Below, piece after piece: positions 15,325 to 54,321 of a stretch of 64,000 bases of DNA (its first letter is position 1; each line of letters begins with the position of its first letter). The translations under genes and the position numbers were made by a program. The notes beneath the pieces were generated by a model, which was given only the letters and a program-made list of their open reading frames with translations, did no database searches and was not told the origin of the DNA. This DNA comes from Bradyrhizobium paxllaeri (GTDB lineage Bacteria > Pseudomonadota > Alphaproteobacteria > Rhizobiales > Xanthobacteraceae), in NCBI RefSeq assembly GCF_001693515.2, contig NZ_CP042968.1, forward strand, positions 2,418,001 to 2,482,000, written 5' to 3'.

Positions 15325-15432
15325 TATGTGGGAGCGGTTATCCCTCCCAGTGGCTGTATTCGGCGCGAGCGCCCATCCACCCCAAGCGCCCATATGGCTT
15401 GACCCGTCCGGTTGTCCCCCCGGACGGGTCTT
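15325..15432 (+). ncRNA. Candidate small RNA with C-rich hairpin loops and intrinsic terminator
   Basis: About 105 bases hold three consecutive hairpins: TGGGAG...CTCCCA (15329-15334/15344-15349), GGCG-CGAG-CGCC (15362-15373) and a strong terminator (15401-15430). Unpaired or loop segments are C-rich (ATCC, CCACCCC, TGTCCCC), as in rhizobial sRNAs that carry anti-Shine-Dalgarno motifs. A TTGAAC at 15293 and TATCTA at 15321 are imperfectly spaced promoter elements. No coding frame with an RBS fits. The 5' end is a guess. Confidence 0.4.
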
Positions 15433-50843: not shown

Positions 50844-52352
50844 TCAGGCCGCGCGAACGTAGCCGTAGCGGAGGTTCGAGGGCTGCGTCGCCGCTTGAGC
50901 GTACTCGTTCTTGAGCGCCGCGAGGCGGTCCTCGGAATAGGTTGGCATCCTCGTGTTTTCGGCCGCCTTGAGCTTGATCTTGTAAAACCTGAGTGCATTG
51001 CCCGAGAAGATCTGCTGCTTGGTGGCGCTATTGGCGTCGCCGAGCGGCGCAAAGCCGTATTTCTTCTGCATGTCCTCGGGAATTTCGAGGCGGCGCAGCG
51101 CCTCGATCTGCCACTGCGGTGAGCCGTACCAGACCGAGTCAGTACCCCACATGACGTGATCAACCCCCATGCCCTTGATCAACGTGCCGACCAGCGCGGC
51201 GCAGAACTTCGGATGCGCCACCGCCGAGTTGGCAAAGGACGTGCCGAGCTCGGCATAGACATTGGTGACGCCGAACTTCTGCGGGATTTCCGCGAGGTCC
51301 GTGGCCCACTGGATGCGGCCGGTCTGCTCGAACTCCGCCCACGCCTTGTCCGGCAGTTCGAGGAACGCCCGCAGCGCCGAGTGATAGATCACGAAATTCA
51401 TCTGCGGCCAGTCCTTCGCCGCCTTTCCGATGTCCCACGCGGTTGCGTATTCCCACACGCCGGCGAACGACTTCTCGTAATCGGGCGGCAGCAGCCCCTT
51501 GTGGATGCACAGCGTGTTGATGCCGGCCTTCACGGCTTTTTCGTAGAACGGATACATCACCTGCTCGTCGTCGAGCCGCCAGGGGAACTTGGAGGGCGCC
51601 AGCGGATCGCCGATCGTGTAGGACTTCCAGGAATCCGGCTTGTAGACCTCGATCGCCTTGTCGACCTCCTCCATCCAGCCGGGCTGCTTTGGGGTGATGA
51701 CGCTGTGCGCCAGCAGACGGCGCGAACCGGCGAAGTCGTTGATGAGTTCGCGTGCCTTGACGATCTGCTCGTTGGAAAGGAGCCACCAGCTCGGATCGTC
51801 GAACGGCGCTCCGCTCAGGAGCGCCACGTTGGTGTCGCTGTCGTAGTAGATCTCTTTCACATAATTCTGGAACTTGTAGCGGCCGAGCGAGGAGACGCCC
51901 TCTTCCTTCATCTTCGGATTCCAGTGCTGGCTTGCAAAGTCGGCCAGCCCCAGAAGCTCCTTGTGATCGAAGTCGTCGCGCACGAAATGGGTCTGAACGT
52001 CGAAAATGAACTGGCTTGAGAGTCCCTGCGCCCGCGCCAGCATCAATTCAGGCTCTCGCGCCTCCGCGGCCGCGACCTGGAAAACATTGCCATAGACGTC
52101 GTTCATGGCGAGGAATGCCGCCGCCATTCCGCAACTCGTGTGCAGGAACTGCCTGCGGCTCAAGCCGAGGTGCTTGCCGTTAGCGTCGGCGAGCTCGTTG
52201 ATCCGTGCCTCGACCTTTTTTTGCACCGCGCTCTGCGGGGGCGGCAGATACTCGCCGTTGGAAACAATCTGAGTGGGAATAGGCATTGGCGCCGATGCTG
52301 CCTCCGCGCCTGCGACAAGACGTTGCTCTCGCTCACTAAGCCAGGTGCTCAT
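50844..52352 (-). CDS. Amidohydrolase-2 family protein with internal twin-arginine motif
   Basis: A 502-residue metallo-hydrolase of the TIM-barrel amidohydrolase-2 group (decarboxylases and hydrolases). Visible parts are FDVQTHF, SALRAFLELP and MWGTDSVWYGSPQWQIEA, with the Asp of the metal site in GTD. A Tat-like signal SRRQFLHTSCGMAAAFLA begins at residue 65, after a charged N-terminal extension, which is unusual. ATG 52352 has GGAGAAGAAC directly upstream, so the extended start is well supported. Export would place it in the periplasm, if the internal motif is used. Substrate unknown. Confidence 0.82.
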   Translation of the reverse strand: MSTWLSEREQRLVAGAEAASAPMPIPTQIVSNGEYLPPPQSAVQKKVEARINELADANGKHLGLSRRQFLHTSCGMAAAFLAMNDVYGNVFQVAAAEAREPELMLARAQGLSSQFIFDVQTHFVRDDFDHKELLGLADFASQHWNPKMKEEGVSSLGRYKFQNYVKEIYYDSDTNVALLSGAPFDDPSWWLLSNEQIVKARELINDFAGSRRLLAHSVITPKQPGWMEEVDKAIEVYKPDSWKSYTIGDPLAPSKFPWRLDDEQVMYPFYEKAVKAGINTLCIHKGLLPPDYEKSFAGVWEYATAWDIGKAAKDWPQMNFVIYHSALRAFLELPDKAWAEFEQTGRIQWATDLAEIPQKFGVTNVYAELGTSFANSAVAHPKFCAALVGTLIKGMGVDHVMWGTDSVWYGSPQWQIEALRRLEIPEDMQKKYGFAPLGDANSATKQQIFSGNALRFYKIKLKAAENTRMPTYSEDRLAALKNEYAQAATQPSNLRYGYVRAA

Positions 52353-52685
52353 TGTTCTTCTCCATCCTTGGGCGCCATCGACGATGCTGGTCGGTGCGCG
52401 CATGAGGCCCGCGTTTGGCCACTGCCGATCAGTTAGATGGACGAAATAGCCGTACCCTCTCGTTCGGCTGCGCATGAGGCCATCACACGCGCCTCATTGC
52501 CCAGGCGAGTCTCTTCATCATTTCGTGTTGCGAGAGTACGGACGCACTTTGCAAAGCTACTTGCGGTAGTGGCGGCATCAGCGCCGAATTCAATGCTCAA
52601 ACTTCCATTGGCGCAAGCAAGTTATCCGACAGTCACACTGTCCCAACGCGCCATTGCGACTGGCTGGGTTTGCTGGAGCACTATG

Positions 52686-52790
52686 CGCATCGAAAACCAG
52701 GAGCGCTTGCGGGCGCTCAAGGCCAATCACGGTGACGCCGTGACCATCTTCAACAGCCATGATCCCGTGGACTACGACAACTGCCGTTGT
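52686..52790 (+). pseudogene. Possible C-terminal remnant of an MBL-fold hydrolase
   Basis: About 35 codons encode NQERLRALKANHGDAVTIFNSHDPVDYD, which resembles the last segment of metallo-beta-lactamase-fold hydrolases such as AHL lactonases. The frame before it lacks the expected HxHxDH motif and helices. It lies in the 742-base gap 52353-53094. Confidence 0.35.
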
Positions 52791-52874
52791 GGTCAGCACC
52801 AGGCCGGACCATCCGCCACAGGGTGTTGATGTCCCTGCGCATCATCCATATTCCGCGACGCCAAGCGGCCGGCG

Positions 52875-52903
52875 TTGACGCTTGAGCGTTTTGCCGCCAT
52901 ATA
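52875..52903 (+). promoter_or_regulatory. Promoter of the threonine attenuator
   Basis: TTGACG (52875-52880) and CATATA (52898-52903) are separated by 17 bases. The start of transcription, about 7 bases after the -10 element, falls at or next to 52910, the A of the leader ATG, so the leader peptide would be leaderless. Confidence 0.6.
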
Positions 52904-52909
52904 CAGCGC

Positions 52910-52987
52910 ATGAATAAGCTTCGCTCAGCCGCATTGACCACCACCGCGACCGCTTACGGCGGATCGCCTGCTGGTTGCGCGCGCTAG
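52910..52987 (+). CDS. Threonine-rich leader peptide of an attenuator
   Basis: A 25-codon ORF, MNKLRSAALTTTATAYGGSPA then GCAR, with four threonine codons in five (ACC ACC ACC GCG ACC at 52937-52951). There is no Shine-Dalgarno sequence, and the promoter places the transcript start at its ATG. It ends 19 bases before a strong terminator stem, and the gene after the terminator encodes a threonyl-tRNA synthetase. Ribosome stalling at the Thr codons when charged tRNA-Thr is low should prevent termination. The rhizobial trpL leader has the same leaderless layout. Translation is not shown. Confidence 0.7.
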   Translation: MNKLRSAALTTTATAYGGSPAGCAR

Positions 52988-53006
52988 AGACAAGCGTACT
53001 TCACCC

Positions 53007-53050
53007 AGAAAAGGCCCCGCCGGCGACGGACGGGGCCTTTTCTGGTTTTT
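53007..53050 (+). terminator. Attenuator terminator before the ThrRS-like gene
   Basis: AGAAAAGGCCCCG (53007-53019) pairs perfectly with 53031-53043. The loop can fold further (CCG/CGG around GCGA), and T-runs follow. An alternative pairing CGGCGG (52957-52962) with CCGCCG (53017-53022) would break the stem and is the best antiterminator I can find. Confidence 0.82.
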
Positions 53051-53094
53051 GATGGTCCCCGTCCGCGCTTTTCCCATCACAAGGAACTTGAGCC

Positions 53095-54321
53095 ATGGAC
53101 GATCTCGACCACAGAAATCTCGGCGTACAACTCAAACTCTGGCACCTTCAAGAAGATGCGCCGGGCATGGTGTTCTGGCATCCGCGCGGCTATGCCGTCT
53201 ACCGGGTGCTGGAGGACTATCTCCGACGCAAGATGCGCCAAGCCGGCTATGCCGAGGTCCGGACGCCGCAGCTGCTGCCAAAGGAGTTCTGGGGCCGCAG
53301 CGGCCACTGGGACAAATTCCGCGAGCACATGTTCCGGGTCGACGACGGCGAGCTGGCGATGGCGCTGAAGCCGATGTCGTGCCCGTGCCATGTGCAGATC
53401 TTCAACAAGGGGCTGCGCTCGTGGCGGGAGCTTCCGATCCGCTATGCCGAGTTCGGCTCCTGTCACCGCAATGAGCCTTCCGGTTCGCTCCACGGCATCA
53501 TGCGGACGCGCGCCTTCGAGCAGGACGATGCGCATGTGTTCTGCCGGGAGGAGGACGTGGAGGGCGAAGTCGCGCGCTTCATTGCCCTGCTGGGCGAGGT
53601 CTACCGCGACCTCGGTTTTCCTGACTACGAGGTGGCGCTGGCGACGCGGCCGGCGGTGCGCGCCGGCGACGACGCGACGTGGGACTGGTCGGAGGCGAAG
53701 CTCGGCGATGCTGCGCGGCAATGCGGTCTCGTGCCTCAAATCAATCCCGGCGAAGGCGCGTTCTACGGACCGAAGCTGGAATTCGCGTTGCGCGACCGGC
53801 TGGGACGATCCTGGCAGTGCGGCACGGTGCAACTCGACGGCGTCCTGCCGCAGCGGCTCGAGGCGTCCTACATCGCTCCCGACGGCAGCCGCGCCAGGCC
53901 CTTGATGATCCATCACGCCATCTTCGGATCGCTCGGCCGCATGCTGGCGATCCTGCTCGAGCACCATGGCGGCGCGCTTCCGTTCTGGCTGTCACCGGAC
54001 CAGGTTGCGGTTGCGCCGATCTCGAAAGACCAGGCCGGATACGGCGCGGACGTTCTGGCAGCGTTCGAGGATGCCGGGATCAGAGCCGTTGCCTATGACG
54101 GCGCCGATACCCTTTCGCGACGCATCGTGGCGGCGCATGAAATGGCGGTGCCGGTGATGGCTATTGTCGGCGGGCGCGAGATGAGGGAAGGCCGGGTGAC
54201 CTTGCGCGAGCGCGACGGCTCGCAGGCCGCCGTTCCGCTGGCCGAGGCGGTGTCGCGCCTGCAGGCGAGAGCGCGGCCGGGCGCCCTTGTGGCTGAGCCG
54301 TCGCTGGTCAGTAACTCCTGA
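53095..54321 (+). CDS. Threonyl-tRNA synthetase lacking TGS and editing domains (second-type ThrRS)
   Basis: A 408-residue class II synthetase against about 640 for standard ThrRS. Missing are the N-terminal TGS and the editing (SAD) domain. The catalytic core is complete: motif 2 region EFGSCHRNEPSGSLHG, zinc ligands Cys96, His147 and His273 (in ALKPMSCPCH, DDAHVF and MIHHAIFGS), and motif 3 Arg in GSLGRML. The anticodon-binding domain is about 305-395 (VAVAPISKDQ, VGGREMREGRVTLR). It joins threonine to tRNA-Thr but cannot clear seryl-tRNA by itself. An attenuator precedes it. It may be an extra copy for stress or inhibitor resistance. Confidence 0.92.
   Translation: MDDLDHRNLGVQLKLWHLQEDAPGMVFWHPRGYAVYRVLEDYLRRKMRQAGYAEVRTPQLLPKEFWGRSGHWDKFREHMFRVDDGELAMALKPMSCPCHVQIFNKGLRSWRELPIRYAEFGSCHRNEPSGSLHGIMRTRAFEQDDAHVFCREEDVEGEVARFIALLGEVYRDLGFPDYEVALATRPAVRAGDDATWDWSEAKLGDAARQCGLVPQINPGEGAFYGPKLEFALRDRLGRSWQCGTVQLDGVLPQRLEASYIAPDGSRARPLMIHHAIFGSLGRMLAILLEHHGGALPFWLSPDQVAVAPISKDQAGYGADVLAAFEDAGIRAVAYDGADTLSRRIVAAHEMAVPVMAIVGGREMREGRVTLRERDGSQAAVPLAEAVSRLQARARPGALVAEPSLVSNS

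Follow-up and report, generated by a model that had tools for sequence, protein, structure and literature searches.

The window analysed here is a 64-kb stretch of the Bradyrhizobium paxllaeri genome (64,000 nucleotides of contig NZ_CP042968.1), which contains a gene for a short threonyl-tRNA synthetase (ThrRS) and, directly upstream of it, a leader with a small open reading frame (ORF), a run of threonine codons and a strong hairpin. The leader can be divided into six RNA segments, some of which are able to pair in more than one way. The features of the locus, numbered from the first base of the window, are as follows.

52875..52903, + strand: predicted promoter, with TTGACG (52875-52880), a 17-nt spacer and CATATA (52898-52903); from the sequence and from relatives
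52910..52987, + strand: putative leaderless leader-peptide ORF MNKLRSAALTTTATAYGGSPAGCAR, 25 codons plus TAG at 52985-52987; from the sequence and the indel pattern
52937..52951, + strand: putative regulatory threonine codons, ACC ACC ACC GCG ACC, inside segment 1; from the sequence and from relatives
52946..52967, + strand: 1:2 hairpin, GCGACCGC with GGCGGATCGC; from folds, the pairing being kept with other letters in distant relatives
52957 onwards, + strand: segment 2, CGGCGG (52957-52962) and the bases after it; from the sequence and folds
53017..53022, + strand: segment 3, CCGCCG, which can pair with 52957-52962 (antiterminator 2:3) or within the terminator
53005..53050, + strand: predicted terminator hairpin 3:4, with a 15-bp outer stem, an inner CCG/CGG and TTTTT; from folds and covariation
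53027..53035, + strand: segment 4, CGGACGGGG, which forms the terminator 3' half and has a strongly conserved sequence
53057..53065, + strand: segment 5, CCCCGTCCG, whose bases are complementary to those of segment 4 and, in part, to GGACG (53097-53101) in the start region
53081..53101, + strand: segment 6, comprising the Shine-Dalgarno sequence AAGGA and, from the ThrRS gene itself, the start codon with GGACG; from the sequence and a fold
53095..54321, + strand: gene for the short ThrRS, 408 residues, ATG at 53095; from domains, the thrS model, an alignment with the E. coli enzyme and a tree

The hexamers TTGACG and CATATA with their 17-nt spacer, the ATG at 52910 and the 25-codon ORF with its Thr-Thr-Thr-Ala-Thr run, all of which had been pointed out in an earlier reading of the letters without database searches (the sequence-only reading), are present at base level, with the threonine codons at 52937-52945 and 52949-52951. 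CATATA is separated from the leader ATG by 6 nt, and the predicted transcription start is the A of this ATG or a base adjacent to it. When the 50 bases preceding each of 50 leaders were searched for the best match, a TTGAC box, a spacer of 16-18 nt and a distance of 5-8 nt between the -10 element and the ATG were found in 48 (L038 and L040 are the exceptions), and the best -10 match lies 4-8 nt from the ATG in all 50, so that hardly any space remains for a Shine-Dalgarno sequence of the leader ORF itself. Each of the 50 leaders has between two and nine threonine codons, the orthologue L005 having only two because a 6-nt indel removed two others. A simple consensus scan of positions 52000-54000 returned no sigma-70 site and left the terminator hairpin on the + strand unflagged; the promoter and the terminator therefore rest on conservation, and the case for them is made via comparison.

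The gene at 53095 does encode a ThrRS, as had been proposed, but it is a second copy without editing domains. A full-length ThrRS is encoded elsewhere in the genome (a 684-codon open frame, G000:C1:3459063-3461114), which rules out the short gene as the housekeeping one. The 408-residue protein is limited to two domains, the class II catalytic core and the one for anticodon binding (positions 172-563 of the 565 of the thrS model); the N-terminal TGS and editing domains of full-length bacterial ThrRSs are absent, and over the shared part it is 46% identical to its full-length paralogue. C96, H147 and H273, the equivalents of the E. coli zinc ligands Cys334, His385 and His511, are invariant in 22 aligned short ThrRSs. 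The same holds for the equivalents of Tyr462 and Gly463. The short ThrRS is apparently catalytic though editing-less. In most short ThrRSs, the segment NEKI..K(I/V)REH of the full-length enzymes is replaced by ETLSRKI or a similar sequence (residues ~330-345), and anticodon reading may therefore differ.

Of the 16 genomes with a ThrRS behind a threonine leader that were checked, 15 encode both a short and a full-length ThrRS. In a 55-row tree (30 short, 25 full-length), the two kinds are separated by a single branch (support 100/100), and the short side unites Bradyrhizobium, other Alphaproteobacteria, Burkholderia, Paraburkholderia, an uncultured bacterium and a myxobacterium; L146, whose matched stretch passes a stop, was omitted from the alignment of short ThrRSs. 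An Acidocella assembly is nested in the Burkholderiaceae group of the short enzymes (100/98), which suggests transfer between lineages. Within the genus, 7 of 40 short-ThrRS matches are partial or contain a stop, and in two loci (L174 in G092, L175 in G064) the leader is intact but is followed by a ThrRS gene that looks disrupted. These two loci suggest that the spare ThrRS is being lost in some strains, and together with the seven damaged matches they point to an enzyme that is dispensable there.

Among the matches listed, all 67 short ThrRS genes found by their protein sequence at the score cut-offs have a threonine-codon leader upstream, a count that excludes broken copies under these cut-offs, and the pair extends over Alphaproteobacteria, Burkholderiaceae and one myxobacterium. 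A short ThrRS is encoded at E<=1e-130 in 40 of the 265 genomes of the genus, and at all 40 loci the leader lies upstream. A scan of named genomes (best 80 of 580) placed it before 10 of 10 further short ThrRS genes, in Azospirillaceae, uncultured, Inquilinus and Acidocella assemblies as well as in three Paraburkholderia, two Burkholderia and Citreicoccus (Myxococcota). Six rows are not counted: L073, on a contig too short to include the leader, and L033-L037, which duplicate loci of the genus. While the first 50 leaders were recognised from the upstream DNA, the last 17 were identified with a covariance model lacking them (R1), built from 21 of the 50; a leader alignment contained 26 of the 50. 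Genomes of the class and of the phylum were searched with a profile of 22 short ThrRSs. The class search (385 genomes) yielded 13 short ThrRS genes at 660 bits or more, with the next matches at 621.3 or less, and all 13 loci, B. paxllaeri included, match R1, so that 12 of 12 further ones have the leader. From the phylum search (398 genomes) came nine at 659 bits or more versus 617 or less for the next; five of the nine are further ones, and all five match R1. At full-length ThrRS loci, R1 matched once in 52, in a test that reached 1500 bases past the match or up to the contig end and omitted L195 and L197, two pieces of one full-length gene, and L259. This one match (L187, the same place as L178, in G315) is a threonine-rich leader, MRTHPVLRSTATTTTTATGGRWRMRA, before a full-length ThrRS, the sole ThrRS found in that genome.

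The comparison of relatives proposed in the sequence-only reading thus finds the threonine codons, the terminator and the position of the ATG conserved while the flanks drift, and this extends far beyond Bradyrhizobium. Conservation supports a threonine attenuator on a ThrRS gene, and the element occurs outside Alphaproteobacteria too, in Burkholderiaceae and the myxobacterium. Among 31 close sequences (B. paxllaeri included), the leader ORF has a single indel, of 6 nt, as against 19 distinct indels in the leader outside the ORF, of which 18 have lengths that are not divisible by three: the reading frame is protected from indels. Variation at the three codon positions (9, 7 and 10 of 24) is without a clear excess at the third, so the peptide itself is not clearly under selection apart from its threonine codons. 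It drifts except for these codons and a GGS..G..R-like tail, the latter coinciding with RNA segment 2.

On the RNA level, positions 52910-53060 fold at -74.1 kcal/mol (z -5.8), an energy as low as which was reached in none of 200 shuffles. The strong perfect stem with its T-run was described correctly at the outset, but not its length, given as 13 bp: the outer terminator stem has 15 perfect pairs (53005-53019 with 53031-53045), followed by TTTTT. A strong hairpin is found in all leaders, and the U-tract, good in the B. paxllaeri window, is weak in L039, L041 and L049 (Paraburkholderia) and absent in L081 (the myxobacterium), so that termination in these lineages may be less simple. In the 1:2 hairpin, the threonine codons form one side, and the letters vary by lineage (ACGACC/GGUCGU, for example, CACUAC/GUGGUG in L081 and GCCACC/GGUGGC in L121). 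CGGCGG at 52957-52962 and CCGCCG at 53017-53022, which had been proposed to compete with the terminator, are complementary, and the resulting 2:3 pairing of GGCGG with CCGCC in the terminator 5' half stands only moderately above shuffles (mean z -1.79; p<=0.1 in 21 of 32 leaders). RNAalifold, applied to a plain MAFFT alignment of 26 sequences, gave no stem beyond the terminator and one 3-bp stem; of the 14 consensus pairs, three, the outermost of the terminator, have both partners changed. It probably missed 1:2 and 2:3 because the threonine repeats slip in register, and given this sparse consensus, both were judged one sequence at a time.

Stalling was simulated by folding the nascent RNA before the terminator 3' half is fully out, with an assumed ribosome footprint of 12 nt, and an antiterminator was called when at least 5 of 8 segment-3 bases paired with the leader ORF. 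A stall at the second threonine codon gave the antiterminator in 34 of 36 leaders, a ribosome at the last threonine codon in 5 of 36. Without a ribosome, 20 of 36 leaders formed it, including the one of the B. paxllaeri window, in which 7, 3 and 7 of the 8 segment-3 bases were paired with an early stall, a ribosome at the last threonine codon and no ribosome, respectively. In these simulations, the position of the ribosome would set which of the mutually exclusive hairpins 1:2, 2:3 and 3:4 forms, as in a classical attenuator, with an uncertain ribosome-free state; since ribosome-free leaders often fold as antiterminators, the off state may be leaky. The 36 leaders are the 32 used for z-scores, shared-base and control-gene tests plus four, and also served for the anchored pairs described below. 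The 32 consist of 19 of the 26 aligned leaders, chosen by dropping close copies, and 13 from the class scan, one of which, L178, precedes a full-length ThrRS. For L040, the thrS start used for the z-scores lay 12 nt downstream of the proper position; the shared-base test, the anchored pairs and the stall simulations used the corrected start.

Judged from its sequence, the element is real and conserved, and it is very probably a leaderless, ribosome-dependent threonine attenuator of a backup ThrRS. The ORF, the threonine codons, the promoter spacing and the alternative pairings are conserved, and the linkage to the short ThrRS is constant. For the transcription start, termination, the starvation response and enzyme activity, we infer the following course. 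RNA polymerase would start at the ATG of the 25-codon ORF. When Thr-tRNA is plentiful, the ribosome would pass the threonine codons and cover segment 2, segment 3 would go to the terminator, and the short ThrRS would stay off. When Thr-tRNA is scarce, the ribosome would stall on the threonine codons, one side of the 1:2 hairpin, and thereby free segment 2 (GGCGG) to pair with segment 3 (CCGCC). Transcription would then read through, and the editing-less ThrRS would be made and restore charging.

A leader that senses starvation would presumably also sense inhibition of the main enzyme, and second ThrRS genes can be ObaO-like (PMC11252418), so that the short ThrRS might be an inhibitor-tolerant, self-resistance enzyme, induced when the housekeeping ThrRS is inhibited. 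We consider this unlikely: ObaO-type inhibitor-tolerant enzymes have Gly463Ser in E. coli numbering (PMC11252418), whereas the corresponding residue 225 is Gly in 22 of 22 short ThrRSs and residue 251 (E. coli Leu489) is Leu in at least 90%. With the key Gly463Ser missing in all 22, an ObaO-type enzyme was rejected.

The leader could also, like S. meliloti trpL, mainly yield a trans-acting small RNA or peptide, with control of the ThrRS being secondary. Its predicted leaderless attenuator RNA with an ORF has the layout of rnTrpL/peTrpL (PMC7298713), and L174 and L175 retain it in front of disrupted-looking genes, but the drift of the peptide and the invariable pairing of the leader with a short ThrRS gene (67 of 67, among the matches listed) make a mainly trans-acting role quite improbable. 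Finally, an ordinary terminator of the upstream region with a chance ORF, compatible with the shortness of each element and the negative consensus scan, has next to no probability and was ruled out by the conservation of the leader, whose order and spacing are kept across families and in a second phylum; the early judgement that chance is an unlikely explanation is borne out by all 40 same-genus loci.

A T-box leader was excluded as well, with no Rfam T-box match in the 64-kb window or in 12 loci of relatives. In these 12 loci, the enterobacterial threonine operon leader of Rfam gave no match at E up to 0.5, and in window and loci together no Rfam family matched the ThrRS leaders, with three weak matches falling outside them. 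In the whole window, a single Rfam match reaches the gathering level, a Rhizobiales-2 RNA at 15330-15430 (+), with 94 bits.

The threonine attenuator may be extended by a second layer at the ribosome-binding site, a six-segment coupled switch to which we give slightly less than an even chance. In its on state, segment 3 would be held by segment 2, and segment 4 would be free to pair with segment 5, leaving the ribosome-binding site open. In its off state, with the terminator formed and the polymerase escaping nevertheless, segment 5 would pair with the Shine-Dalgarno or start region and block translation. Several observations are consistent with this extension. Segment 4 (ACGGACGGGG) is more conserved in sequence than a hairpin alone requires, and a stretch with its complement follows the terminator (CCCCGTCCG in B. 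paxllaeri, CTCCGTTTG in two Paraburkholderia). In many relatives, segment 5 also matches the Shine-Dalgarno sequence (CTCCGTTTG/CAAACGGAG, CTCCGTTTC/GAAACGGAG, CTCCGTG/CACGGAG, CTCCGTC/GACGGAG); in Bradyrhizobium, it pairs with the start region instead. The 4:5 duplex has a mean z of -1.87 (p<=0.1 in 23 of 32 leaders; z -4.1 in B. paxllaeri) and the post-terminator fold one of -1.63 (p<=0.1 in 18 of 32). The initiation regions are more structured than those of 19 control genes of the window, chosen by length, codon-position G+C and Shine-Dalgarno match (MWU p 9e-5; 22 representatives, p 4e-4), and 284 bases are common to 4:5 and 5:6 versus 215 expected, with 26 of 32 leaders above expectation.

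Other results are mixed. In the leaders anchored by CTCC/GGAG (15 of 36), the pairs at positions 1 to 6 of the extension form in 13, 14, 8, 8, 11 and 4 of 15, so that the next two pairs after the anchor are nearly always present, but positions 3 and 4 pair in only 8 each (p 0.16) and position 6 in 4. The Shine-Dalgarno sequences are less accessible than those of the controls, though not significantly so (0.33 vs 0.38, p 0.19; representatives, p 0.14). In 13 leaders of the related asd type described below, the arrangement is present on average, with mean z-scores of -1.26 and -1.05; B. paxllaeri, however, has an asd leader without it (z +1.3 and +0.3). As the leader rows are related, the p values are optimistic and flatter the coupled-switch model. 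The possible coupling of termination to hiding of the ribosome-binding site, which is new here, thus has moderate support, with one test negative.

Somewhat more tentatively, the whole may be seen as a portable module of a leaderless threonine-sensing attenuator and an editing-less ThrRS that has moved between distant bacteria. In its six-segment RNA, a single stall would decide on both transcription and translation: segment 4, which resembles the Shine-Dalgarno/start region, would compete with it for segment 5, so that an error-prone synthetase would be locked twice and released only under a shortage of Thr-tRNA. For asd, this architecture would have been used again, with threonine, lysine and methionine codons.

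The E. coli thrABC operon has a threonine-rich leader, thrL, and pheST is a tRNA synthetase operon under leader-peptide attenuation; both leaders have untranslated 5' ends. The element described here shares the threonine-rich leader with the former and the predicted leader-peptide attenuation of a tRNA synthetase gene with the latter, but differs from them in target gene or amino acid, and its leaders are without an Rfam match. In Bacillus subtilis, thrZ encodes a spare ThrRS, and T-box RNAs read uncharged tRNA directly. The spare ThrRS proposed here would likewise be switched on when tRNA-Thr charging falls, but its sensor would be the ribosome and not a T-box.

The closest known mechanism is that of the leaderless rhizobial trpL (PMC7298713), which the sequence-only reading had named as an attenuator of the same layout. 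According to the available text of that report, the ORF of S. meliloti trpLE(G) (peTrpL/rnTrpL) is leaderless, with its ATG being the 5' end of the RNA (PMC7298713). Our element has the same succession of ORF, cognate-codon run, predicted terminator and downstream gene, and its ORF is likewise predicted to be leaderless. Unlike trpL (PMC7298713), it has threonine instead of tryptophan codons, targets an aminoacyl-tRNA synthetase paralogue, possibly has a second layer at the ribosome-binding site and occurs beyond Alphaproteobacteria. As for the enzyme, the Anabaena ThrRS T2 is described in the available text as a proofreading-impaired second ThrRS of nearly the size of T1, induced by stress, at low zinc via Zur (PMC4787780). 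The short ThrRS resembles T2 as a second, apparently proofreading-impaired ThrRS that would be induced under stress, but it wholly lacks the N-terminal editing region.

That a ThrRS attenuator of this kind is undescribed, as had been suspected, agrees with the open-access literature, a scope outside which many journals lie: we found no report of a leader-peptide attenuator on a ThrRS gene there. The available text of an attenuator survey mentions threonyl-tRNA synthetase once, for E. coli autoregulation (PMC2965389), and that of a review on duplicated synthetases names, for ThrRS, Anabaena T2 and the animal ThrRS-L (PMC9437257). If our reading is true, the element is a Gram-negative, ribosome-sensed counterpart to the T-box control of spare ThrRS genes, leaderless attenuators occur well outside rhizobial trp, and an apparently proofreading-less synthetase is tied to starvation. 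This raises the question of whether some mistranslation of threonine by serine is accepted when Thr-tRNA is short.

Beyond the ThrRS genes, the covariance model joins a leader family without an Rfam entry, with ThrRS, asd and a further Bradyrhizobium target. At E<=0.01, R1 has matches in 246 of the 257 genomes of the genus. Among the matches listed, 39 exceed 95 bits, 37 of them in genomes with a short ThrRS and two (G064, G092) before the disrupted-looking ThrRS genes, and two other kinds recur among the weaker matches fetched from the genus and the class. In the first kind, leaders with threonine, lysine and often methionine codons precede asd in Alphaproteobacteria; the finding that leaders related to the ThrRS leader precede asd is new here. 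SEP5 of S. meliloti, a translated small ORF with six threonine and three lysine codons in the 5'-UTR of an "aspartate dehydrogenase" gene (PMC10117765, available text), is probably such an asd-type relative. It differs from the B. paxllaeri leader in that its target is not a ThrRS gene (PMC10117765).

B. paxllaeri itself has an asd-type leader, MTISTKATAKTKAPSGGWGAVRA, at G000:C1:4465355-4465467 (L165:656-768), which contains threonine and lysine codons, has TTGACG upstream and is followed by a terminator-like hairpin and an asd-like gene. Further fetched matches (L160, L162, L163 and L177, for example) were assigned neither to the ThrRS nor to the asd kind, nor to the second recurrent kind. 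This last kind is a Bradyrhizobium leader with the peptide MIKSSRK(L/T)NRNHMTRFG(W/R)AVGGVVR or similar and the same kind of hairpin (L148, L166-L173, L179). It precedes a small ORF starting with MPPQ... in several loci, and in L172 and L173 it is present in two copies about 1 kb apart.
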